Positions 3,369 through 17,186 of a DNA stretch of 20,110 nucleotides are shown piece by piece. A program made the translations under genes and the position numbers. Positions within the stretch are counted from its first letter, which is position 1, and each line of letters opens with the position of its first letter. The notes beneath the pieces are model-generated. The model was given only the letters and a program-made list of their open reading frames with translations. It was not told the origin of the DNA and did no database searches. The stretch lies in the IMG/VR virus record IMGVR_UViG_3300025872_001385, positions 1 through 20,110 of that record; one strand, given 5' to 3'. This DNA comes from a virus.

Positions 3369-4943
3369 ATGGCTTCGCCCACTCGCCGCCGTCTCATCCA
3401 GCGCACACAAGCCAATGTGGCGTCCCTCCCCGCCCCTGTGGGCGGTTGGAACGCACGCGATGCGCTTGCCAACATGGCTCCCACGGATGCCGTCACGCTA
3501 GACAATTTGTTCCCCGGCGTCAGCAGCGTGACGTTGCGCGGTGGCTACGACAAACACGCCACAGGCATGACCGGCCAGATTGAAACGCTGATGACCTACA
3601 GCGCAGGCACGACAGACAAACTGTTTGCCATCGTTGGCGGCAACATTTTTGACGTTACTGTGGCAGGCCCGGTGGGTGCCGCAGTCGTAACGGGGCTGTC
3701 TAACAGCCGCTGGGAATACACCAACATTACGACCGCAGGCGGCAGTTACCTGTATGCCGCGAACGGCGCTGACAAACCACGCCTTTACAACGGATCATCG
3801 TGGACAGCCATTGACGGCGCATCCACACCTGCCATTACAGGCGTCACCACTACCACGCTCACCTCGCCCACCCTGTTTAAAAACAGGATGTGGTTCATCC
3901 AAAAAGACACCTTAAAAGCATGGTATTTGCCGACCGCATCGGTGGGCGGTGCAGCTAACGCGCTAGACCTGTCATCGGTTGCACATTTGGGTGGCAGCCT
4001 TGTGGCGATGGCGTCATGGACGATTGACGCAGGCTACGGCGTAGACGACAACCTTGTTTTTGTCACCGATCAAGGCGAGGTTATCGTTTATCGCGGCACC
4101 GACCCCTCTAGCGCCTCCACATGGGCGCTGATCGGCGTCTGGATTATCGGTGCGCCTATTTCTCGGCGTTGCTTGCTGAAATACGGCGGCGATTTGCTGG
4201 TTTTGACGCTTGATGGCCTGATTCCGATGGCATCGGCGCTGCAATCGTCACGCCTTGACCCCAACGTGGCGCTGTCGGACAAGATTCAAGGCGCGTTTGC
4301 CGTTGCTGCCAAAACGTACAAGAGCAACTTTGGTTGGGGGATGCTGTATCACCCGCTAAACAACGCTCTAATTGTCAACATTCCTGTGTCGTCTAACGCA
4401 CAAGTGCAGTTTGTGATGAACAACATCACCAAAGCGTGGTGTCGGTTCACCGGCTGGTATGCAAACTGTTGGTCATCGCTAAACGATGAGCCGTATTACG
4501 GCGCTGATGGGTACGTCGCAAAGGCTTGGACGACGGGAACCGGCTCGGCGGGCTATAACGACAATGGTCAGGCCATCAATAGCAAGGCACTACAAGCGTT
4601 CAATTACTTTGACACCCGTGGCGTCATCAAATACTTCACCCGTGGCCGCACAACCACCTACTCCAACGGTCAGCCGACCATTGGCGTTGGTATTGCGGTG
4701 GATTTCCAGACCGATGACTTCCTTGGTGCGTTGTCGTTTGTCGGCACCAATTACGGTCTATGGGACGTTGGGCTATGGGATCAGGCGATTTGGGGCAGCA
4801 ACACGATTGCGAGCAACACGGTCGTAGGGTTGAGCGGTATCGGTTATTGCGGCGGCATCATTTTCAACAGCAGCAGCAAGAACGTATCGCTTGAGTGGGC
4901 ATCAACTGATGTGGTGTATCAACTCGGATGGGCTGGGATATAG
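3369..4943 (+). CDS. Tail nozzle / tail tube protein (P22 gp10-like position)
   Basis: This 524-residue protein has the hallmark N terminus of podoviral tail nozzle proteins: APVGGWNARDALANMAPTDA (residues 22-41), then LDNLFPG and VTLRGGYDKHATG. A long series of beta-propeller-like strands follows, including DKLFAIVGGNIFDVTVAG, SYLYAANGADKPRLYNG and LFKNRMWFIQKDTLKAWYLP. The KAWCRFTGWYANCW block lies later in the protein, and the C terminus has paired GLWDVGLWDQAIWG repeats before a beta-rich end. Nozzle proteins assemble as hexamers under the adaptor ring and close the tail channel until DNA ejection. It starts directly after the adaptor stop codon, with only a weak ribosome site, suggesting coupled translation. 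Its last 16 bases overlap the next gene. Confidence 0.85.
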   Translation: MASPTRRRLIQRTQANVASLPAPVGGWNARDALANMAPTDAVTLDNLFPGVSSVTLRGGYDKHATGMTGQIETLMTYSAGTTDKLFAIVGGNIFDVTVAGPVGAAVVTGLSNSRWEYTNITTAGGSYLYAANGADKPRLYNGSSWTAIDGASTPAITGVTTTTLTSPTLFKNRMWFIQKDTLKAWYLPTASVGGAANALDLSSVAHLGGSLVAMASWTIDAGYGVDDNLVFVTDQGEVIVYRGTDPSSASTWALIGVWIIGAPISRRCLLKYGGDLLVLTLDGLIPMASALQSSRLDPNVALSDKIQGAFAVAAKTYKSNFGWGMLYHPLNNALIVNIPVSSNAQVQFVMNNITKAWCRFTGWYANCWSSLNDEPYYGADGYVAKAWTTGTGSAGYNDNGQAINSKALQAFNYFDTRGVIKYFTRGRTTTYSNGQPTIGVGIAVDFQTDDFLGALSFVGTNYGLWDVGLWDQAIWGSNTIASNTVVGLSGIGYCGGIIFNSSSKNVSLEWASTDVVYQLGWAGI

Positions 4944-5368
4944 TCAGCGGCCCCCATGTGGGCCATTGGGTCATGTCACGCACCGATGGTGCGTATAACT
5001 CCGACCGCTCGGTTGCCATCGGGCTTGAGCGAGACGGTGAGTTGGTCGCCGGTACGGTTTACGAGATGTGGAACGGCAGATCGGTCGTTTGCCACATCAC
5101 TTGGGATCAAATCACACCGGCTTACCTTGCCGCTGTGTACGACTATCCCTACAACGTCGCAAATGTTGATAAGATAATAGGGCCGATTTCCAGCAAGCAT
5201 ACCCGCGCGCTGAAACTGGTCACGAAAATGGGGTTTTCGGAGGAAGCGCGTATCAAAGACGGCGCACCTGACGGAGACATTGTTTTTATGACGCAGACAC
5301 CAGACAGGTGTCGTTTCTTGGAGCCGAGGTATGGGCAAAAAATCACCAGCACCGCCGCCAGCGCCTGA
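4928..5368 (+). CDS. GNAT-type N-acetyltransferase-like protein
   Basis: This 146-residue protein looks like the GNAT-family proteins often found among podovirus structural genes. The strand pair VAIGLERDGELVAGTVYEMW (residues 29-48) matches the family's central 'g.a.giVeddrivAg..y' hairpin. YDYPYNVANVDKIIGPISSK (71-90) and ALKLVTKMGFSEEARIKDG (94-112) match the acetyl-CoA-binding helix and the 'a....eklGF..e....d' segment. GDIVFM (116-121) is the last core strand, followed by DRCRFLEPRYG, which is common in the phage members. The acceptor substrate is unknown; a virion protein, a host protein or a surface sugar are all possible. It overlaps the nozzle gene by 16 bases and the next gene by 38, so its final dozen residues are read from DNA that also encodes the next gene's start. 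Confidence 0.75.
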   Translation: MGWDIVSGPHVGHWVMSRTDGAYNSDRSVAIGLERDGELVAGTVYEMWNGRSVVCHITWDQITPAYLAAVYDYPYNVANVDKIIGPISSKHTRALKLVTKMGFSEEARIKDGAPDGDIVFMTQTPDRCRFLEPRYGQKITSTAASA

Positions 5369-8003
5369 TTACACAACCCTAGCCATCAAGCAGGGTGAGG
5401 CGAACTTGGCCGCTGCCAAGCAATCGGCTTATATGTCCAATCCCAACATCTACGGCCCCACCGGGTCGCAGACGGTTACTTGGCAAAAAACCCCGACCAT
5501 AGACACCGACGCCTACAACAAGGCGTTGCAGGCTTATCAGGATCGCATCGCCCAATACGGCCCCGAATACGCTGGCGAAGCTCCTAACCAAGATCAGTTC
5601 ACGACGTTTATTGAGCAACCGACTGTTCGCCAATCGCTAACGCCAACGGGTCAGGCGACGTTAGAACAACAGCAAGCCGCAGAACTGTATTTGTCACAAG
5701 CGGCGCGTGGCGCTGCACAAGGGCTTGGCAATCTTGGCATTGCGTCAGCCTTTGACGCCCGTAGCATCCCCGGCATCCAGTACAACGTCGCAAACGCAGG
5801 CGCGATTGATCGCGGCGTGGTTGGCGGCGAATTGCCGGGTTATACAGACGTTAATTACGCGACAACAGGCTTGGCCGGTGCGCCAACTGGCGGTTATACG
5901 CCGATTGCGGGTTACAACCTTGAAGGTCTGCCGGGTCAAGTCGGGCCGGGGCAGCAAGCATCGGTCAACCTTCCGGTGCAGGGCGCAAGCAACGTACAAA
6001 ATCAGTTTTTTGGCATGGCAGGCGCTGGCCCTGCTGCGCCAACCAACCTTGGGCAAATAGATGAAGCGCGGTTTTTCTCGCAAATTGCCCCTGGAGCATT
6101 TGATTTTGGCGCTGCACGAACTGGCCCCAATGCACCGCAACTGCAAGGGTTAAACCTTGCCGGTGTAGGTGGCGTTGGTGAGGGTGTAGGCGGCGGTGCG
6201 TTTGGTTATGCTCAAGGTGGCCCATCGGGCGGTCTTTTTGGACTTGCAAGTGGCGGCCCGCAAGGCTTAAACCTTCAAGGACTTGATTTGTCAGGCGTTG
6301 GTAGCGTCTCGGGCGGCCCGCAGCAAGGCCAATTTGGCTACGCACAGCGTTTTGTGCAAGGCCCGCAGTTGCAGCGCGACATAGACATTGCCAACTTGCC
6401 GCAAGGGCCAGTAAACGCTGGCATGACCGCGCAGACGGCGTTGTTGTCGCGTTTGTCACCGCAGTTGCAGGGTGAGCGTCAGCAACTCCAAACGCAACTT
6501 ATCAACCAAGGTTTGCGACCGGGTGGCGAGGCGTACAACGCTGCCATGTCGGCGCAGATGCAGAAGGAAAACGACCTTTTGTTGCAGGCCGCAGCGCAGG
6601 GCATCAGCCTTGATCAAGCCGCTCGTCAGCAAGCATTTAGTGAGCAGCAATCCCGCGCTATGTTTGCCAATCAAGCCGCTCTATCGGGCTTTGGCGCAGG
6701 CATGGAGCAGGCGGGGCTGTTTAACCTCGGAGCACAGCAGGACTTGCAGTCCTCACTTGCTACGCAAGCCGCGCAAAACCAGGCACAACAGCAGGCGTTC
6801 CAGCAGCGTTTACAGGCTGGTGAGTTTGGCCGTGAAGCGCAATTAGCGTCGTTTGGCACGCAACAGTCTGCTGCTGATGCGTATAACCGCGCAATCGCAC
6901 AAAACTTTGGGCAATTCCAATCTGCACAGCAGATGCAAAATCAGGCTGTGCAGCAAAACCTGCAAAACCAGTTGGCTGCCGAGGAAGCGCAACGCGCCGC
7001 TCAAGCGCAACGGTTCGGTCAGGCCGTTGGTGCAACCGAATTAGGCGCACAGTTAGCCGGCCAACAGTTTGGCATGGGACAAGAAGCGCAACAGATGGCA
7101 AATCAGTCTGTCGCGCAAAATTTCCAACAAGCGTTGCAATCGCAGGCCGCGCAAAACGCCGCCATTGCACAGAATTACCAGCAAGCCCTTGGTGCGGCGG
7201 GCTTCAACCGTGAAGGGTTATTGCAGCAGTTCGGCATGGGTCAGCAGGCCCAGCAACTAGCTAATCAGGCTCTCGCGCAAAACTATCAGACGACGTTTGA
7301 TCAGGCGCGGGCGCAAAACGAGGCGTTGCAGCAAATCTTCAATCAGTCGCAAGCCCAGCAGCAAATGTATAACCAAGCTGCCGGTCAGAACTTCCAGCAG
7401 CAGTTGGCCGCGCAACAGTTCAATCTTGCACGACAAGCCCAACAGGCCGGTCAGTCGCAAGAAGCCGCGCAGTTCTACAACCAAGCCCAAGCGCAGGCTA
7501 TGCAACAGGAGTTGGCTCGTCAGCAGGCGCAAAACGCCGTGCAGGGCCAGCAATTCCAGCAGGTTGTGCAGCAGCAGGAAGCCCGCAACGCCGCGTTGGC
7601 GCAGCGGTTCCAGCAGGACATGGCGCGACAGGCCGCTGGCAATGCCGCTCAACAGCAGCAGTTCCAGCAAAACATTGCCAACCAGCAGTTTTACAACACC
7701 GCTGTGCAGCAGGCACTTGCCCAACAGGCGGCTATCCGCTCGTTGCCAGTCAACGAGATCAGCGCCTTGTTGTCAGGCGGTCAGGTCAGCATCCCGCAGT
7801 TCCAAGGCTATCAAGGCGTGTCGGTCGCACCTGCTCCGGTATTTCAAGCCGGTCAGGCAGCGGGCGATTTCGCACAACGCAATTACCAGAACCAAGTGGG
7901 CGCATACAACGCAAACATGGGCCTCCTCGGCAGCATCGCGGGTATTGCAGGCTCTGCCGCAGGCGGCCCGCTTGGCCTCATGGGCGGCTTATTCGGGAGA
8001 TAA
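5331..8003 (+). CDS. Large Gln/Ala/Asn-rich internal virion (putative ejection) protein
   Basis: This 890-residue protein starts with GKKSPAPPPAPDYTTLA and then MSNPNIYGPTGSQTVTW (residues 35-51), an N terminus shared by many podoviral virion proteins of unknown function. Residues about 200-340 are Gly-rich and include a duplicated block (an LQGLNLAGVGGVG segment ending GAFGYAQ, then LQGLDLSGVGSVS ending GQFGYAQ). Residues about 370-435 become helical and Gln-rich. Residues 436-795 are 20 head-to-tail 18-residue units without a single insertion or deletion, mostly starting with Phe or Tyr and carrying Asn at position 12. The last 25 residues are Gly/Ala/Leu-rich (GSIAGIAGSAAGGPLGLMGG) and could touch membrane. 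The gene order (nozzle, acetyltransferase, this protein, then two more low-complexity proteins) suggests a protein packaged in the head and ejected with DNA. GGAG and GAGG lie just before ATG 5331. Confidence 0.75.
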   Translation: MGKKSPAPPPAPDYTTLAIKQGEANLAAAKQSAYMSNPNIYGPTGSQTVTWQKTPTIDTDAYNKALQAYQDRIAQYGPEYAGEAPNQDQFTTFIEQPTVRQSLTPTGQATLEQQQAAELYLSQAARGAAQGLGNLGIASAFDARSIPGIQYNVANAGAIDRGVVGGELPGYTDVNYATTGLAGAPTGGYTPIAGYNLEGLPGQVGPGQQASVNLPVQGASNVQNQFFGMAGAGPAAPTNLGQIDEARFFSQIAPGAFDFGAARTGPNAPQLQGLNLAGVGGVGEGVGGGAFGYAQGGPSGGLFGLASGGPQGLNLQGLDLSGVGSVSGGPQQGQFGYAQRFVQGPQLQRDIDIANLPQGPVNAGMTAQTALLSRLSPQLQGERQQLQTQLINQGLRPGGEAYNAAMSAQMQKENDLLLQAAAQGISLDQAARQQAFSEQQSRAMFANQAALSGFGAGMEQAGLFNLGAQQDLQSSLATQAAQNQAQQQAFQQRLQAGEFGREAQLASFGTQQSAADAYNRAIAQNFGQFQSAQQMQNQAVQQNLQNQLAAEEAQRAAQAQRFGQAVGATELGAQLAGQQFGMGQEAQQMANQSVAQNFQQALQSQAAQNAAIAQNYQQALGAAGFNREGLLQQFGMGQQAQQLANQALAQNYQTTFDQARAQNEALQQIFNQSQAQQQMYNQAAGQNFQQQLAAQQFNLARQAQQAGQSQEAAQFYNQAQAQAMQQELARQQAQNAVQGQQFQQVVQQQEARNAALAQRFQQDMARQAAGNAAQQQQFQQNIANQQFYNTAVQQALAQQAAIRSLPVNEISALLSGGQVSIPQFQGYQGVSVAPAPVFQAGQAAGDFAQRNYQNQVGAYNANMGLLGSIAGIAGSAAGGPLGLMGGLFGR
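6636..7715 (+). repeat. 20 tandem 54-base units encoding 18-residue helical repeats
   Basis: Codons 436-795 of the large virion protein divide exactly into 20 units of 18 residues. Position 1 is Phe in 14 units and Tyr in 2, otherwise Leu, Met or Ala. Position 12 is Asn in 15 units and Arg in 3. Examples are FGMGQQAQQLANQALAQN, FQQDMARQAAGNAAQQQQ and FQQNIANQQFYNTAVQQA. Phase is kept over 1080 bases even though sequence identity between units is low. Confidence 0.85.
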
Positions 8004-9813: not shown

Positions 9814-11748
9814 ATGCCTAAATATCGCATTGAAGGCGAAATTTATGAAGCGGCAAACGAAGATGAAGCGTATGCCAAACATGACCTTGCAAAAGGTCGT
9901 GAACCAAGCGTTACGGTAACGCGCATTGGCGACCGTGAAATAAAGCCGCCAGAATCTAACCGTGACTTGTTAGACGCATTGCGTACAGCAGGCGGCAAGG
10001 CGGTTCGCGCTGTCGGCCCGTATGTAGCTGCTGGCGCAGCCGGGGCAGCGGCAGGCGCTCCGTTGATGGGCGTTGGCGCTATTCCCGGTGCGATCGCAGG
10101 CATGACCGCTTACGGACTTGGCTCAACCGCAGCCGATTTAATGACGGGCGGTCAAGCAAGCCAAGGCGTTGAAAACCTGATGACCCGCGCAGGATTGCCC
10201 GAATACGACACCGCGCTTGAACGCATGGCGTCCTCTGGCGTTCGTGGCGCATTAGGTGGGTTTTCTGGTGCTCAAAGTGCCGCGGCATTGCAAGCCGCTC
10301 GCGGAACGGTGCCGCAAACCACTACGCAACGCATTATTGACATCATGGCGCAAAGCCCCGGCGCACAAACCGCAGGCGCAGGCATTGCTGGCGTCAGCGC
10401 ACAAGGCGCAAGAGAGGTTGGTTTGCCCGAACCTGTTCCGTCGTTAGTGGGTATGGCGGCAGGCACGGCTCCGTTTGTGCGTATGGGTTCGTTTAGGCCA
10501 GAAACACCGCCAGTACAATCGGGTGCAACACGGCCAATGCCGCCAACACCGCCCGCATCAGGCACGCCTACAGGTCGCGGAGCGCCGCTAACACAACCGC
10601 CTGTTACACCAATGCCGCCGCAAGACGTTCGCATGGGTAACGTGGCGCGGCTTGAGCGAGCGGGTGTTCCCGTATCGCCGGGTCAGCGGTCGGGTGCGCC
10701 ATTGACGCAGACTGTTGAAAGCGTAATGAAGTATTTGCCACCGTCTGCGCCGCGTTCTGCGCGGTTTATGGACGATCAAATGCGCTCTTACACAAAAGCG
10801 CTGTTAAGTCACGCTGGCATTAACGCAGATACCGCCACGCCTGATGTGTTGTCAACCGCACAACGTCGGTTTGGCGATATTTACAACGACCTTGAGCAAT
10901 CAACGGTGCTTGGCGGCCCCGATGAAAAGATGATTGATGATTTGGCTCGCGCCGAACAAATTGTTGGGCAAGGCGCGCCGCAAAACATTAAAGATTCGTT
11001 CCTTGGATACCGAGATGCGGTGCTGAATTGGGCAAGCGGAACGCCGCGCCAAGGTCAAACCTTTAAGGGATTGGCTGAAGATTTAGGCGCGGAAATACGC
11101 AAAGCCGAGCGCAGCAATGAGGCGGGGTCGGTAAAGAACGCGCAAGCATTGATTACGTTGCGAAATGCTTTGTTTGGGTTAGTAGAGCGTCAAGCATCGC
11201 CAGAGTTGGCTAACGCATGGCGTCAGGCTAACCGCGAATATGCCATTTTCAAAGCGATTGAAGATTCCATGCTTGACCCGTCGCAAGTCACGCTCAACAC
11301 AGGGTTTGTTAACCCGCGAAAGATTGGCAACATTCAAATGAAGTTGCGATCAGATGAGTGGACGCAGGGCGATGAAGATGCTGATAGCTTTACCAACTTG
11401 GTCAAGGCGGGCATGGCGTTGATTCCTGACCCTATTCCTAACAGCGGCACCGCACAACGAATGTTTGCACAAGACATTTTACAAGGCGGTCGGCAAATGT
11501 TTAACAGCCCCGCAGGCCCGGCTATTGGAGCGGCTTCAGGTGCTGCTGGCATGACAGGATTTGGAGCAGCAAGCGCCTTTGACCCAATTAGCGCCTTTGG
11601 CATTCCGTATCTTGGATCACGATTTTGGTATGGCGATGCACCACAGTCGCTTCGCCCCATCGCAGCAGCTTCGGCTGTCGGTTCGCAGCAACGTCAAAAG
11701 ACAAAGCGCGAGAAACTTGCGGAAGAACTTAAGAGGAAGCGGCAATGA
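9814..11748 (+). CDS. Putative internal virion / DNA-ejection protein with hydrophobic Gly/Ala segment
   Basis: This 644-residue protein begins PKYRIEGEIYEAANEDEAYA, a small N-terminal motif seen on many podoviral internal virion proteins. Residues about 65-112 form a long hydrophobic Gly/Ala region (VGPYVAAGAAGAAAGAPLMG, then GAIPGAIAGMTAYGLGS) able to enter membrane. A Pro/Thr-rich linker follows at about 228-268. The helical C-terminal half opens with RLERAGVPVSPGQRSGAPLT and continues through RSARFMDDQMRSYTKALLSH and AEQIVGQGAPQ. The 'le.aGipvs.gqrtg' opening recurs in phage proteins thought to leave the capsid with DNA. A second Gly/Ala segment lies near the end, followed by a basic Lys/Arg tail. 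GGGAG precedes ATG 9814. The stop overlaps the next start as ATGA. Codon use is more A/T-ending than in the flanking fibre genes. Confidence 0.65.
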   Translation: MPKYRIEGEIYEAANEDEAYAKHDLAKGREPSVTVTRIGDREIKPPESNRDLLDALRTAGGKAVRAVGPYVAAGAAGAAAGAPLMGVGAIPGAIAGMTAYGLGSTAADLMTGGQASQGVENLMTRAGLPEYDTALERMASSGVRGALGGFSGAQSAAALQAARGTVPQTTTQRIIDIMAQSPGAQTAGAGIAGVSAQGAREVGLPEPVPSLVGMAAGTAPFVRMGSFRPETPPVQSGATRPMPPTPPASGTPTGRGAPLTQPPVTPMPPQDVRMGNVARLERAGVPVSPGQRSGAPLTQTVESVMKYLPPSAPRSARFMDDQMRSYTKALLSHAGINADTATPDVLSTAQRRFGDIYNDLEQSTVLGGPDEKMIDDLARAEQIVGQGAPQNIKDSFLGYRDAVLNWASGTPRQGQTFKGLAEDLGAEIRKAERSNEAGSVKNAQALITLRNALFGLVERQASPELANAWRQANREYAIFKAIEDSMLDPSQVTLNTGFVNPRKIGNIQMKLRSDEWTQGDEDADSFTNLVKAGMALIPDPIPNSGTAQRMFAQDILQGGRQMFNSPAGPAIGAASGAAGMTGFGAASAFDPISAFGIPYLGSRFWYGDAPQSLRPIAAASAVGSQQRQKTKREKLAEELKRKRQ

Positions 11749-13841
11749 GCTTTAACGGCAGCGGCGTATTTGTCATCAATTCGGCAGGCCAGCCGGTCGT
11801 TGCCAACACGGTTATCTCGTCAACCGTTTTCAACGCTCTGACGGCTGACCTTGCTACCGGCTTGACCAACTGCATCACCAAGGACGGTCAATCCACGCCC
11901 ACGGCTAACATCCCGATGGGCAACAACAAGATCACGGGCCTTGCGGTGGGTACGCTGGCGTCCGACGCCGCTAACCTCTCACAAGTACAGTCCACCTCGG
12001 TCAAACTCATTACGGTCAGCGGTGCAGATACCGTTACCGGCACGCTCTCGCCTGTCCTTGCGGCGTATGAAGCAGGCCAGATGTTCTATTGGGTGGCCGC
12101 TGGCACCAATACTGGCGCTGTCACGCTTAACATCAACAGCCTTGGCGCAAAAGCCGTCACGCGAGACGGCAGCACGGCGCTGATTGCGGGTGACATCCAA
12201 TCTGGCGAAATCGTGATGGTCGTTTACGACGGCACGCGGTTCCAGATGATCAACGCCGCCAACTCTTTCGGCAACACGACGATTAATGGCACCCTGACGG
12301 TTACCGGCAACACGACGTTGCAGGCTAACGTCAGCGTAGGCTCTACGTTGGTGGTGGGCGGTACGCTGGCGGTAGTCGGACGATCCGACCTGCCGACCAT
12401 ATCTACCGCCTCCATGAACGCAGCGGTTGCAGCGGTTACCGATCTGCGTGCTACCAGCGCCTCTATTACCTCCGCAAACGTCGGCACGGCGGTTATTTCC
12501 ACAGGAACGGTGACTAACCTCACCTCCACCGCAGCGTCTATTGCGTCGGTTAATGCGGGCGTGGCGCTGCTGACGACAGCAACGGTTACCAATTTGTCGG
12601 CTACCGGCGCATCTATCGCATCGGCCAACCTGACCAACGCCAATATCAGCAACCTCACGCTCACGGGCGTATCGGTGGCGTCGGCAAACCTTGGTGTTGC
12701 CAATGTCACGGACTTGCGTGCAGCGGGAGCCTCGGTCACCTCTGCCAACGTCGGCACAGCGGTCATCACGACCCTGACAGCCACGGGAGCGTCGGTCGCA
12801 TCGGCTAACGTCGGCACCGCAGCGGTTACCCGATTGGACGCCACGGGCGTATCGGCTGCCTCCATCAACGCAGGTGTGGCCGTCGTTACTACCGGCACGG
12901 TCACCAACCTCACATCCACAAACGCCAGCATTGCATCGGCTAACCTTGGCACGGCCAACATCACGGCTCTGACGCTGACCGGCGTATCGGTTGCCTCTGC
13001 CAATGTTGGGGTTGCTAACATCACCGACCTGCGTGCCACAGGCGCGTCGGTTACCTCGGCCAATGTCGGCACCGCAGTTATTACGACGCTCACGGCTACC
13101 GGAGCCTCGGTCGCGTCTATCAACGCGGCTGTTGCGCTGTTCACAAACGGCACGGTGACAAACTTAACGTCAACCGGCGCGTCCATCGCCTCGGCTAACG
13201 TCAACAACTTGCAGGCTACTGGCGCATCTGCTGCGTCTGCCAACCTTGGCAACGCGGTTATTACCACGCTGACCGCCACAGGGGCGTCTATCGCCTCTGC
13301 CAATGCGGGGCGGTTGGATGTCACAGCAGCCTCGGCAGCGTCCATCAATGGTGCGGTGGCGCTCTTTACGACCGGCACGGTAACTAACTTCACCTCTACG
13401 TCGGCCAGCATCGCCTCTGCCAACCTCGGTAATGCACAGGTCACCGGAGCGAGCATTGCATCGGCCAATGTCGCGGCATTGACGGCAACAGGGGCGAGTA
13501 TTGCGTCAGCCAATATCGGCACGGCGGTAATCAGCACAATTGCCTCGGTATCCATCGCCTCGGCCAACATCGGTACAGCGGCAGTTTCCACGCTGATCGC
13601 TACCAACGCATCTATTGCCTCGGCAAACGTGGCAGCGATGCGTTTTATCGGCGCATCCTCGGGATACGTCGGCTTTATCGCTCAAACATCAGCAGGTTCC
13701 GCAACGTATACTTGGCCCAATGCCGATGGCATCAATGGGTATGTGTTGCAAACCAACGGATCAGGAAACTTGTCATGGGTCGCACAATCTGGCGGCGGTG
13801 GGGGCGGTGGCTCCAATGCCTTCGCTTGGTTTATCTCTTGA
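11745..13841 (+). CDS. Tail fibre protein with pentapeptide-register repeats
   Basis: This 698-residue protein opens FNGSGVFVINSAGQPVVANT, then FNALTADLATGLTNCITKDG, the virion-attachment N terminus of many podoviral fibres. IPMGNNKITGLAVGTLASDA (residues about 57-76) is another common fibre motif. Residues about 80-232 form a beta-rich domain. Residues 238-635 form about 20 repeats built on the pattern GAS(I/V)ASAN(V/L)GTAVIT, whose lengths are 15, 20 or 25 residues with one exception of 18. The C terminus has YTWPNADGINGYVLQTNGSG, a widespread 'P.adg..g.vL.tnGsG.lsW' cap, followed by a poly-Gly stretch and a hydrophobic end. AGAGGA precedes ATG 11745, which overlaps the previous stop as ATGA. 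The repeat arm probably forms a beta-helical shaft. Receptor binding is assumed from position. Confidence 0.8.
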   Translation: MSFNGSGVFVINSAGQPVVANTVISSTVFNALTADLATGLTNCITKDGQSTPTANIPMGNNKITGLAVGTLASDAANLSQVQSTSVKLITVSGADTVTGTLSPVLAAYEAGQMFYWVAAGTNTGAVTLNINSLGAKAVTRDGSTALIAGDIQSGEIVMVVYDGTRFQMINAANSFGNTTINGTLTVTGNTTLQANVSVGSTLVVGGTLAVVGRSDLPTISTASMNAAVAAVTDLRATSASITSANVGTAVISTGTVTNLTSTAASIASVNAGVALLTTATVTNLSATGASIASANLTNANISNLTLTGVSVASANLGVANVTDLRAAGASVTSANVGTAVITTLTATGASVASANVGTAAVTRLDATGVSAASINAGVAVVTTGTVTNLTSTNASIASANLGTANITALTLTGVSVASANVGVANITDLRATGASVTSANVGTAVITTLTATGASVASINAAVALFTNGTVTNLTSTGASIASANVNNLQATGASAASANLGNAVITTLTATGASIASANAGRLDVTAASAASINGAVALFTTGTVTNFTSTSASIASANLGNAQVTGASIASANVAALTATGASIASANIGTAVISTIASVSIASANIGTAAVSTLIATNASIASANVAAMRFIGASSGYVGFIAQTSAGSATYTWPNADGINGYVLQTNGSGNLSWVAQSGGGGGGGSNAFAWFIS
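12456..13649 (+). repeat. About 20 in-frame repeats of 15, 20 or 25 residues in the fibre shaft
   Basis: Units start at each GAS/AAS/NAS-type triplet. From residue 238 the lengths are 25, 25, 20, 20, 20, 20, 25, 20, 20, 20, 25, 15, 20, 15, 25, 15, 15, 18, 20 and 15; the last boundary is somewhat arbitrary. All but one are multiples of five. Ala or another small residue lies two positions before each hydrophobic residue, as in pentapeptide repeat proteins. The longer units contain an extra TVTNLTST-type insert. Confidence 0.8.
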
Positions 13842-14731: not shown

Positions 14732-16342
14732 ATGAGCGGCATTATGAGTTTGCTGCTCGCCTCTAAAGTTGCGGCAGCGGGGCCAAGTTATGTCGTAGCC
14801 ACGTTCACTTCTAGCGGCACATGGACTTGCCCGAGCGGTGTTAGCGCGGTGGAGTACCTTGTCGTCGCGGGTGGAGGCGGTGGTGGTGCAAGGCGCGGCG
14901 GTGGAGGCGGCGCAGGCGGATTCCGTACCGGCACCGGCTTGTCTGTAACCGCCGGAACTGATTACACGATTACGGTTGGTGGCGGCGGCGCTGGCCGATC
15001 AGCCGCATCATTAGGCCGGGGAACAGCCGGTTCAGATTCTGTTTTCAGCACTATCACCTCAACAGGCGGCGGTGGTGGTGGAGGCGATGCGCCCAGCGGA
15101 TCAGGTGGAAGCGGCGGCTCTGGTGGCGGCGGAAGTTTTAGTACCGTTCAAGAATCTGGCGGCTCCGGTAACACTCCAAACACATCTCCATCGCAAGGAA
15201 ACAATGGCGGAAATTCTGTATCTACGCCAAACGACGGAACTGGTGGAAACGGCGGCGGTGGTGGCGCGTCAGCCGTTGGAGGGAATGGAAGTGGCACCGT
15301 TTCTGGAAACGGCGGAGCAGGCACATCCTCTAGCATTTCTGGATCGTCTGCGACTTATGCTGGCGGTGGTGGTGGCGGCGTGTTTGGCTCCGGCACAAAA
15401 GGAACTGGAGGCTCCGGTGGTGGTGGTAACGGCGGAGATGCGTCAAATGACGGCGTTTCTGGCACAACCAATACCGGAGGTGGTGGTGGTGGCGCTGGAC
15501 AATTAGGCGCACCAACATTTGGATCAAATACTGCTGGCTCTGGCGGCTCTGGCATCGTCATCCTCAAGTACGACATCGGCTCTGCCACAATCTTCACCTT
15601 CAAGTCATCGCAGAAGTGGACTGCACCAGCGGGTGCGGTGAGCGTTGACTACCTCGTTGTTGCGGGTGGCGCTAGTGGTGGAGATAGTGGCGGCGGCGGT
15701 GCAGGCGGATTTCGTACTGGCACCGGATTTAGTATTACCGCTGGTACCGATTACACCATTACGGTTGGCGCTGGTGGAGCCTCAGTATCAACTACGTCAA
15801 ACGGCAACGCTGGCAACAATAGTGTTTTTTCAACGATAACTTCTGCTGGCGGTGGAGGCGGGGCTACATACAACGGAACTGGCGGCAACGGCGGTTCTGG
15901 TGGCGGCGCTGGTGGACAAGGGCCAAATGCGGCAGGAAATGGCAACACGCCTAGCGTATCCCCATCGCAAGGAAACAATGGTGGAGTTGGTTCTGTAGGA
16001 GCAACTACAGCGGGCGGCGGCGGCGGCGGTGCAAATGCCGTTGGCGGCGCTGCGGCAGCCTCGGGCGGCAATGGCGGCAACGGTGGCGCTGGCACGGCCT
16101 CGTCAATTTCTGGAAGCAGCGTCACTTATGCTGGCGGCGGCGGCGGTGGCAGTACGGGCGGCACCGGAGGTACTGGTGGGGCAGGCGGCGGTGGCAATGG
16201 CCGAACCGAAAGTCCAACTGTTCAAGCCACTAACGGCACGGCTAATACTGGCGGCGGTGGTGGTGGTGCTAGGGCTGGAAGCACTTCTACTTCTGGAGCA
16301 GGCGGCTCGGGTATCGTAATTCTCAAGGTCAATTTCACATGA
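14732..16342 (+). CDS. Duplicated glycine-rich phage adhesin / tail fibre protein
   Basis: This 536-residue protein consists of two tandem copies of a glycine-rich domain of the type found in phage receptor-binding adhesins. Each copy opens with a short beta segment and a Trp: FTSSGTWTCPSGVSAVEYLV (residues 25-44) and FTFKSSQKWTAPAGAVSVDY (288-307), each followed by a V-V-A-G-G strand. Each has a GGFRTGTG block, a TAGTDYTITVG strand, long poly-Gly and Gly-Ser-rich loops, and the closing strand GGSGIVILK near residues 271-279 and at the end. By analogy to glycine-rich adhesins, the loops could fold as stacked polyglycine II helices and bind a cell-surface receptor. Only a weak ribosome site precedes ATG 14732; an in-frame ATG at 14744 is possible. 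The stop overlaps the next start as ATGA. Confidence 0.8.
   Translation: MSGIMSLLLASKVAAAGPSYVVATFTSSGTWTCPSGVSAVEYLVVAGGGGGGARRGGGGGAGGFRTGTGLSVTAGTDYTITVGGGGAGRSAASLGRGTAGSDSVFSTITSTGGGGGGGDAPSGSGGSGGSGGGGSFSTVQESGGSGNTPNTSPSQGNNGGNSVSTPNDGTGGNGGGGGASAVGGNGSGTVSGNGGAGTSSSISGSSATYAGGGGGGVFGSGTKGTGGSGGGGNGGDASNDGVSGTTNTGGGGGGAGQLGAPTFGSNTAGSGGSGIVILKYDIGSATIFTFKSSQKWTAPAGAVSVDYLVVAGGASGGDSGGGGAGGFRTGTGFSITAGTDYTITVGAGGASVSTTSNGNAGNNSVFSTITSAGGGGGATYNGTGGNGGSGGGAGGQGPNAAGNGNTPSVSPSQGNNGGVGSVGATTAGGGGGGANAVGGAAAASGGNGGNGGAGTASSISGSSVTYAGGGGGGSTGGTGGTGGAGGGGNGRTESPTVQATNGTANTGGGGGGARAGSTSTSGAGGSGIVILKVNFT
14801..15571 (+). repeat. Glycine-rich domain, copy 1
   Basis: Residues 24-280 of the adhesin. 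Shares with copy 2 the frame TW...VVAGG, GGFRTGTG, TAGTDYTITVG, a SPSQGNNGG loop, and GSGIVILK. A 20-base run inside it (15188-15207) is identical to one in copy 2. Confidence 0.8.
15593..16339 (+). repeat. Glycine-rich domain, copy 2
   Basis: Residues 288-536 of the adhesin, with the same order of motifs as copy 1. The loops between motifs differ in length and composition, for example SPSQGNNGG followed by VGSVGA here and by NSVSTP in copy 1. Confidence 0.8.
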
Positions 16343-16587
16343 AAACCTATCAACTCATGGGCATTGATACGGCGATGCACTTGCTTCGCCCCGGCGCAAA
16401 GTGGGAGATCAGTAACCGCGAGATCACCCGCTGGGAAGATCCGCGACCCAAGCCGTCGTGGGACGAAATCATGTTCACGATTGAAAAGATCAAGGAACTT
16501 GAGGACGCGGTGCCAACGATCCTGTTGCCCGAACAACAGGCTGCGTTTGACGATTATGTTGCCCAGATTGAAAAGGCGGTTGCGTGA
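16339..16587 (+). CDS. Small fibre-adjacent protein, possible fibre assembly factor
   Basis: This 82-residue protein is not assigned to a named family. It has ISNREITRWEDPRPKPSWDE (residues 24-43), followed by an amphipathic helix (IMFTIEKIKELEDAVPTI) and a second helix (PEQQAAFDDYVAQIEKAVA). A short 'W.dp.P.PsweEi' segment followed by a helix occurs in small proteins encoded directly after phage fibres, some of which help fibres fold; that role is a guess here. Start and stop are both coupled: ATGA with the adhesin upstream and GTGA with the oxygenase downstream. Confidence 0.7.
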   Translation: MKTYQLMGIDTAMHLLRPGAKWEISNREITRWEDPRPKPSWDEIMFTIEKIKELEDAVPTILLPEQQAAFDDYVAQIEKAVA

Positions 16588-17186
16588 TTACATACAACCT
16601 TTTTCCTACGGCTGTCGCCAAGTTTGAACTTGGACGGGACTACACCGCCGAGGAAATGGCGTTTGTGGACGAGCAGCCGATGCATAGCAACATGGGCAAC
16701 ACCACGAGCGATGACCGCTATGTGCTGCGTCACGACACAATGGCAAGCCTCAAGGCGTTTGCAGAGGCCAGCGTCAACGAGTATCTGCGTTCTATCTACG
16801 CGCCGAAACACAACGTTACGCTGCGCCTGACGCAATCGTGGCTGAACTACACGAAAGCCGGTCAGTACCACCACAAACACGCGCATCCCAACTCGTTTGT
16901 GTCTGGGGTGCTGTATCTCAAGGCCGCCCGTGAGCGGGACAAGATTTACTTTTATAAAGACGGTTATCAGCAGATCAAACTGCCGACCGACAACTACAAC
17001 GTTCACAACAGCGATTCGTGGTGGTTTGAGGTTGGCGCTGGCGATTTGATGTTGTTCCCGTCAAGCCTGACGCACATGGTAGAAACCGTGCAGGGCGATG
17101 ATCGTGTGTCTTTGGCGTTTAACACTTTTCCGGCTGGCTATGTTGGAGACGAAAGCAGCCTGACCGCATTGCATTTGAAGGAGTAA
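16584..17186 (+). CDS. Putative 2OG-Fe(II) oxygenase
   Basis: This 200-residue protein, starting at GTG 16584, fits the phage-type 2-oxoglutarate/Fe(II)-dependent oxygenases (PF13759-like). SWLNYTKAGQYHHKHAHPNS (residues 85-104) runs into a FVSGVLYL strand. It matches the family's 'n....G.yh..H.HpnS.lSGvyYl' block, with His96, His97, His99 and His101 as candidate metal ligands. GDLMLFPSSLTHMVETV (153-169) provides the distal His164, and Arg174 in DDRVSLAFNTFP is placed to bind the 2-oxoglutarate carboxylate. The family hydroxylates proteins or small molecules; the substrate is unknown. Such genes are frequent in aquatic phages beside fibre and lysis genes. It overlaps the previous stop as GTGA, so translation is coupled. 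Confidence 0.8.
   Translation: MITYNLFPTAVAKFELGRDYTAEEMAFVDEQPMHSNMGNTTSDDRYVLRHDTMASLKAFAEASVNEYLRSIYAPKHNVTLRLTQSWLNYTKAGQYHHKHAHPNSFVSGVLYLKAARERDKIYFYKDGYQQIKLPTDNYNVHNSDSWWFEVGAGDLMLFPSSLTHMVETVQGDDRVSLAFNTFPAGYVGDESSLTALHLKE

Follow-up and report, generated by a model that had tools for sequence, protein, structure and literature searches.

The locus and its genes

The window (the whole stretch of DNA analysed, a viral sequence of 20,110 bases) carries genes in the order nozzle protein, GNAT-like acyltransferase, candidate rod protein, 127-aa protein, 478-aa protein and 644-aa ejection protein. The candidate rod gene is parted from the gp10-type nozzle gene only by the GNAT gene. The genes and the parts of the 890-aa protein were assigned as follows.

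3369..4943, + strand: tail-nozzle protein (tail tubular B or phage stabilization protein type), which fixes the syntenic place
4928..5368, + strand: GNAT-like acyltransferase, a conserved synteny partner (PHROG 4470)
5331..8003, + strand: candidate rod-protein gene, complete, 890 aa, a PHROG 6121-type virion structural protein (ORF, profile match, relatives)
5331..5720, + strand: N-terminal conserved domain, residues 1-130 (invariant columns; AF2 pLDDT 80-90 at residues ~50-100)
5721..6443, + strand: Gly-rich arm, residues 131-371 (FGxAxGGP-type units; length tracks the array)
6444..6635, + strand: putative turn between the arms, residues 372-435 (sequence comparison; AF2 pLDDT 70-85 at residues ~370-420)
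6636..7715, + strand: predicted helix array, residues 436-795, 20 gap-free 18-residue units (F/Y1, N12, A14, Q17)
7716..7919, + strand: C-terminal conserved segment, residues 796-863, RSLPVNEISALLSGGQV...PQFQGY (common to cultured homologues)
7920..8003, + strand: hydrophobic glycine-zipper tail, residues 864-890, and stop codon
8374..9810, + strand: 478-aa protein, in the place of a second (tunnel) ejection protein by position and size only
9814..11748, + strand: putative ejection protein, 644 aa, PHROG 26400 'DNA ejection protein' (E = 7.5e-20)

The preliminary description of this DNA had called the 890-aa product a virion protein, which is borne out by a profile match to PHROG 6121, 'virion structural protein' (E = 3e-22, residues 2-495). 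The N-terminal domain comprises a PAPPPAPDY leader, an SAYMSNPN motif and two long beta strands with helices; the Gly-rich arm consists of units of ~32 and ~12 residues of the FGxAxGGP type; and the turn has the form helix - NQGLRPGGEAYN - helix, which is kept in cultured homologues too. These homologues, from the podoviruses Sulfitobacter phage pCB2047-A/C, Rhizobium phage RHph_N2, EBPR podovirus 2, Myxococcus phage Mx8 (p54) and Bacteriophage sp. MW202489, match PHROG 6121 with E = 3e-19 to 3e-137. Like the 890-aa protein, they lie after nozzle and GNAT genes and share the N-terminal region, the NQG-x-x-G-S-E-A-Y helix-turn-helix and a PLNEISALxSGxQV segment, and several have a C-terminal Peptidase_S74 domain. 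The examples compared are only 303-451 aa long and have neither the 18-residue array nor the Gly-rich arm, while keeping the turn and both ends; the order nozzle, GNAT, homologue, ejection-type gene recurs in six phage records with homologues of this size.

The 18-residue array and its relatives

Codons 436-795 make up exactly 20 consecutive 18-residue units without a single indel, and our recount agrees with the earlier one in finding Phe or Tyr at position 1 in 16 of the 20 units and Asn at position 12 in 15 of the 20. When the same 360 residues were shuffled 20,000 times, no phase held more than eight Phe or Tyr, against the 16 observed, and identity at lag 18 reached a maximum of 0.237, against 0.292. 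Identity was higher at lag 54 (0.363) than at lags 36 (0.309) or 18, indicating a super-unit of three 18-residue units, and a 9-residue sub-period was also detected (identity 0.222 at lag 9). Tandem Repeats Finder gave only two tiny rows in the region; since the DNA of the array is not tandemly repeated, the phase must be held at the protein level, and DNA-level slippage was ruled out as the origin of the array.

The window array contains 31% Gln, 22% Ala and no proline, and arrays across the family have 31% Gln, 25% Ala and 8% Asn, with no proline in 27,432 array residues. The consensus of 690 distinct units is F/Y1, Q3, L/Q5, A/F10, N12, A14 and Q17. At 100 degrees per residue, conservation falls on two opposite faces (positions 1, 12 and 5, and positions 17, 10 and 14), as expected of a straight helix held between two partners, and its maximum lies at the second harmonic of 100 degrees. 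Plain hydrophobicity peaks at 80 degrees per residue, not 100, because the polar residues N12, Q3 and Q17 share the conserved faces. The alpha-helical character proposed in the preliminary description is supported by the proline-free arrays and by an AF2 helix of low confidence, and the 54-nm length would hold only if the helix is unbroken; the single stripe that had been envisaged is accurate in placing F1 and N12 on one helical face, but the conserved pattern as a whole is two-faced.

A first scan of viral contigs yielded 112 relatives, and two more scans enlarged the set. Array length was measured as the distance between two fixed anchors, QGLxPGGEAY and PVNEI. This distance was 9 modulo 18 in 47 of 47 proteins of the first set (in another anchor phase) and always 16 modulo 18 in the extended set of 83 proteins, which covers 18 lengths between 214 and 664 residues. 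Every array among the 83 relatives is an exact multiple of 18 residues, with 9-34 units per protein (18 different values), so that the strong phase locking claimed earlier is seen across the family as changes in steps of 18; indels of arbitrary length were looked for and did not appear. In the relatives listed, the autocorrelation has its peaks at multiples of 18, with helical lags of 54, 72 and 126, and protein size in the array-bearing family spans at least 563-1,340 aa. The nine-unit relative L221 matches PHROG 6121 with E = 4e-29. Bacterial and archaeal genome contigs, scanned twice, yielded no relatives, and no host or provirus was found. Within the phage collection, where a low-complexity filter could hide the array, tblastn of the whole 890-aa protein gave no match at E <= 1e-5, searches with its N- or C-terminal parts or with L221 gave only array-less homologues, and no cultured phage with arrays was detected.

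Length lock and mirrored indels

Our comparison of the relatives revealed that the length of the Gly-rich stretch, which ranges over 220-490 residues in the family, is locked to that of the array: across 83 proteins and 18 repeat numbers, Gly-rich length equals 129.6 + 10.56 x units (r = 0.999). The Gly-rich lags of 32, 44 and 76 (unit set 12, 32, 44 and 76) are the counterparts of the helical lags 54, 72 and 126. The helix of the preliminary description would not be the whole rod, its length being locked to the Gly-rich arm.

For the mirrored-indel test, the arms of pairs of relatives were aligned separately, and pairs with one large indel per arm were kept. The paired indel sizes in the helical and Gly-rich arms were 18/11, 36/20-24, 54/28-33, 72/44, 90/50, 108/62-63 and 162/93. 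In 28 de-duplicated paired indels, which share sequences and are therefore not fully independent, the position of a helix indel, counted from the turn, predicted that of its Gly-rich partner (r = 0.98), with a slope of 0.566 that agrees with the independent length ratio of 10.56/18 = 0.587. The residual SD of the mirrored positions was 8.4 residues, compared with a mean of 70 and a minimum of 39.5 for random placement of the 28 events, and a parallel register of the arms was anticorrelated in the same data. Compound indels occur in reversed order in the two arms, for example in L200/L213 (helix 54 then 108, Gly-rich 64 then 31), and the arms of L221 and L211 are 95-98% identical apart from exactly two insertions, one of 72 aa and one of 44 aa.

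Like the 18-residue quantisation and the length lock, this mirroring of indel positions and sizes is a regularity of the family, and it implies that, very probably, the Gly-rich stretch and the helix array run antiparallel and are paired in register. Two cases indicate that the lock allows a degree of mismatch. The single clear outlier, L066 (2690-5824), has 26 helix units and a Gly-rich arm ~20 residues short; compared with L148, its helix arm shows indels of 108 and 36 residues, of which only the 108 has a Gly-rich partner, and L066 is either a natural test case or an assembly artefact. In L174/L141, a 36-residue helix indel is paired with only 14-16 Gly-rich residues.

Proposed architecture and place in the virion

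AF2 monomer models had a mean pLDDT of 49.5 for the window protein (22-sequence alignment) and 52.0 for L221 (70-sequence alignment), with confidence confined to the N-terminal domain and the helix-turn-helix; the Gly-rich arm was unmodelled and the pairing was not seen directly. Because the models were poor, the pairing was deduced from comparative sequence, which argues strongly for side-by-side antiparallel packing of the arms. Neither the single sequence nor a 70-sequence profile matched any PDB sequence at E <= 1, and a structure search of the PDB returned only generic helical hairpins (Z < 8); the Foldseek matches in BFVD were for the most part relatives, uncultured-phage proteins labelled 'Intramolecular chaperone auto-processing domain'. 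By our estimate, 18 residues at 1.5 A give 27 A per unit and hence 2.6 A per Gly-rich residue, a spacing that a nearly extended chain can reach. This geometry favours, without proving, an unbroken helix, and we hold with moderate confidence that the array is continuous; the rod would then be 54 nm long for the window array and 24-92 nm across the family. A Gly-rich arm wrapping a single helix once per 18 residues was rejected as too short (an estimated ~35 A available, with over 40 A needed).

The C-terminal end offers a further indication of quaternary structure. About half of the complete relatives (including L016, L009, L050 and L061) end in a Peptidase_S74 (PF13884) chaperone, placed C-terminally as in auto-processing fibres and spikes, although the shafts of the latter are beta-structured whereas the predicted shaft here is helical with a Gly-rich arm. 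The S74 domain starts 71-85 residues past the PVNEI anchor, and relatives that lack it end 76-90 residues past this anchor in a hydrophobic glycine-rich tail. The S74-bearing relatives run on with SDRRLK... from about the glycine-zipper tail of the 890-aa protein, in which a domain search found no S74 domain. In known cases, S74 self-cleaves before its conserved Ser; if this applies here, mature proteins with and without S74 would have matching ends. Known S74 structures are trimers, and these chaperones sit on trimeric fibres and spikes, so that by analogy with the S74-bearing relatives the protein may well trimerise, a point on which our confidence is moderate.

The reading that we prefer, with a probability of about 0.5, is an adjustable-length rod, probably trimeric and needle-like or central-fibre-like, with a shaft built as a hairpin of paired arms. 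The largely extended Gly-rich arm (residues ~131-371) would lead outward from the N-terminal anchor domain, the chain would reverse at the NQGLRPGGEAYN helix-turn-helix, forming the tip of the hairpin, and a straight alpha-helical arm of 18-residue units (18/5 = 3.6) would return alongside the Gly-rich arm to the C-terminal domain. Local pairing of ~10.6 Gly-rich residues with each 18-residue unit (32 per 54) would mean that rod length can change only by matched gain or loss in both arms. Such a protein would serve as a needle-like or central-fibre rod at the tail, its length set by the number of paired cassettes, and in the S74-bearing relatives the chaperone would help the trimer to assemble before being removed by cleavage, so that the mature protein ends in a glycine zipper as the window protein does.

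The role in the virion is inferred from gene position, sequence and analogy, and the gene also adjoins ejection-protein genes. Synteny and the build of P22-type needles make a needle or central fibre the most likely role. The genes of these needles follow the nozzle gene gp10, and their products are trimeric coiled coils of phage-dependent length in which an N-terminal segment doubles back along the shaft (PMC3741392). The needles of P22 (gp26), Sf6 and HS1 resemble the proposed rod in their post-nozzle gene, long helical rod, repeat-number-dependent shaft and fold-back segment, but they have 11-16 heptads (220-320 A) with only 27 residues folding back (PMC3741392), in contrast to 9-34 units of 18 residues, a repeat that is not a heptad, and a partner segment of 220-490 residues. 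The protein could function as an enlarged needle of this kind, although no sequence match to the solved needles was found (PDB search, E <= 1). Variable rod lengths of 24-92 nm would also be more natural for an external part than for one carried inside the head.

The main rival to this rod is an ejection protein, a possibility that we regard as real though doubtful: a first ejection protein in the T7 gp14 / P22 gp7 position would be packed in the head and ejected, its Gln/Asn-rich helices forming a tube that guides DNA across the envelope like phiX174 H, and its Gly-zipper tail inserting in the membrane. The order of the rod gene and genes for ~440-480 and ~640-720 aa resembles the gp7-gp20-gp16 set, and order and sizes fit a gene placed before gp15- and gp16-like genes, but the 127-aa gene intervenes. 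In addition, a downstream gene product matches 'DNA ejection protein', the C-terminal S74 part of the cultured homologues matches PHROG 4287 'DNA ejection protein', the annotations of some S74 matches read DNA injection protein or internal virion protein, and the hydrophobic Gly-rich C-terminus recalls a similar segment of gp14 and gp7. A phiX174-like amide-lined tube is suggested only by composition, the arrays sharing long Gln- and Asn-rich helices with H (PMC7354561). The H tube has no Gly-rich partner arm, homology between the two proteins was not found, and the DNA conduit raised in the preliminary description is unsupported by any direct evidence; a conduit alone would leave the locked Gly-rich arm unexplained. 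A straight shaft of up to ~92 nm would be too long for a head and also for a periplasm, and S74 chaperones belong to trimeric fibres and spikes. Furthermore, gp14-like proteins have 181-240 aa and vary little (PMC8954989), whereas the 890-aa protein is far larger, belongs to a family of highly variable size, and has arrays and relatives with S74; no sequence similarity to T7 gp14 or P22 gp7 was found.

Two other explanations concern the arms themselves. It is improbable, in our judgement, that the arms make no contact and that both hairpin ends are anchored at one place, with the turn region swapped as a block and only recombinants of matched total length surviving. Recombination is frequent in phages, and in window/L093 and L141/L198 the block between the insertion sites is more divergent than the flanks; DNA identity between 5331-8003 of the window and L093 is mostly 0.93-0.99 outside the insertion sites and 0.76-0.93 between them, which suggests that the hairpin-tip region was swapped by recombination as a block. 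The mirrored positions could be due in part to such block recombination of the turn region and selection on total length alone. However, the corresponding block in L221/L211 is no more divergent than its flanks, the Gly-rich units of 12, 32, 44 and 76 share the hierarchy of the helix units of 18, 54, 72 and 126, and the residual SD of the mirrored positions is less than one unit. Least probable, and very unlikely in our view, is the possibility that the array, instead of forming a continuous helix, folds into a compact solenoid or into alpha/beta coiled-coil nonads (18 = 2 x 9). The 9-residue sub-period and the raw hydrophobicity peak at 80 rather than 100 degrees would be consistent with it, but conservation is strongest at the second harmonic of 100 degrees, proline is absent, and the hydrophobic spacing of 4,5 (positions 1, 5, 10 and 14) is not the a-b-c-beta1-beta2-beta3-e-f-g register of nonads (PMC4786415). 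Alpha/beta coiled-coil nonads were ruled out on register: theirs has hydrophobic beta1 and beta2 residues, and offset +3 is here occupied by A/G/Q (position 4) or Q/A/E (position 13).

Under the paired-arm rod, an alpha helix and an extended Gly-rich strand of one chain would be zipped antiparallel in a fixed 18 : ~10.6 register, over 24-92 nm and in matched cassettes, and we put the odds that this is a new fibrous architecture at about even. The PHROG 6121 family is known, named only as 'virion structural' or S74-domain protein, and it is the architecture that may be new: neither the literature searched nor Pfam or NCBIfam yielded arrays that are paired and locked in length, in keeping with the earlier remark that its author knew of no described phage module of this kind. 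If true, phages would tune the length of a virion rod while both arms stay flush, by a fibre design not found in that literature. Mirrored indels in distant parts of one protein are akin to the compensatory changes that reveal an RNA stem, and they provide structural information on virion rods where structure prediction fails. The natural variants of 9 to 34 units make control of rod length in phages directly testable.

Neighbouring genes showed no convincing co-variation with repeat number. The length of the tail-fibre gene (11745-13841, + strand, and orthologues) may rise with the repeat number of the rod (r = 0.63), on a sample of 12 loci that is too thin for a firm statement. This gene encodes a 698-aa tail protein with degenerate (A)SIASANVGTA-type repeats and weak, sub-cut-off pentapeptide-repeat matches, and its low-complexity region is mirrored by a 460-aa antisense ORF (12224-13606). 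An MptE-like gene (283-1059, + strand; PF01973, E = 8e-13), unusual in a phage structural cluster, directly follows the end of an upstream ORF, possibly a capsid gene. Downstream, a 536-aa glycine-rich protein (14732-16342, + strand) has two stretches matched by Pfam Gly_rich_2 (PF21722, 1.4e-49), indicative of an internal duplication of a Gly-rich domain, and a putative 2OG-Fe(II) oxygenase (16584-17186, + strand; PF13759, 1.2e-20) is encoded in the late gene region.
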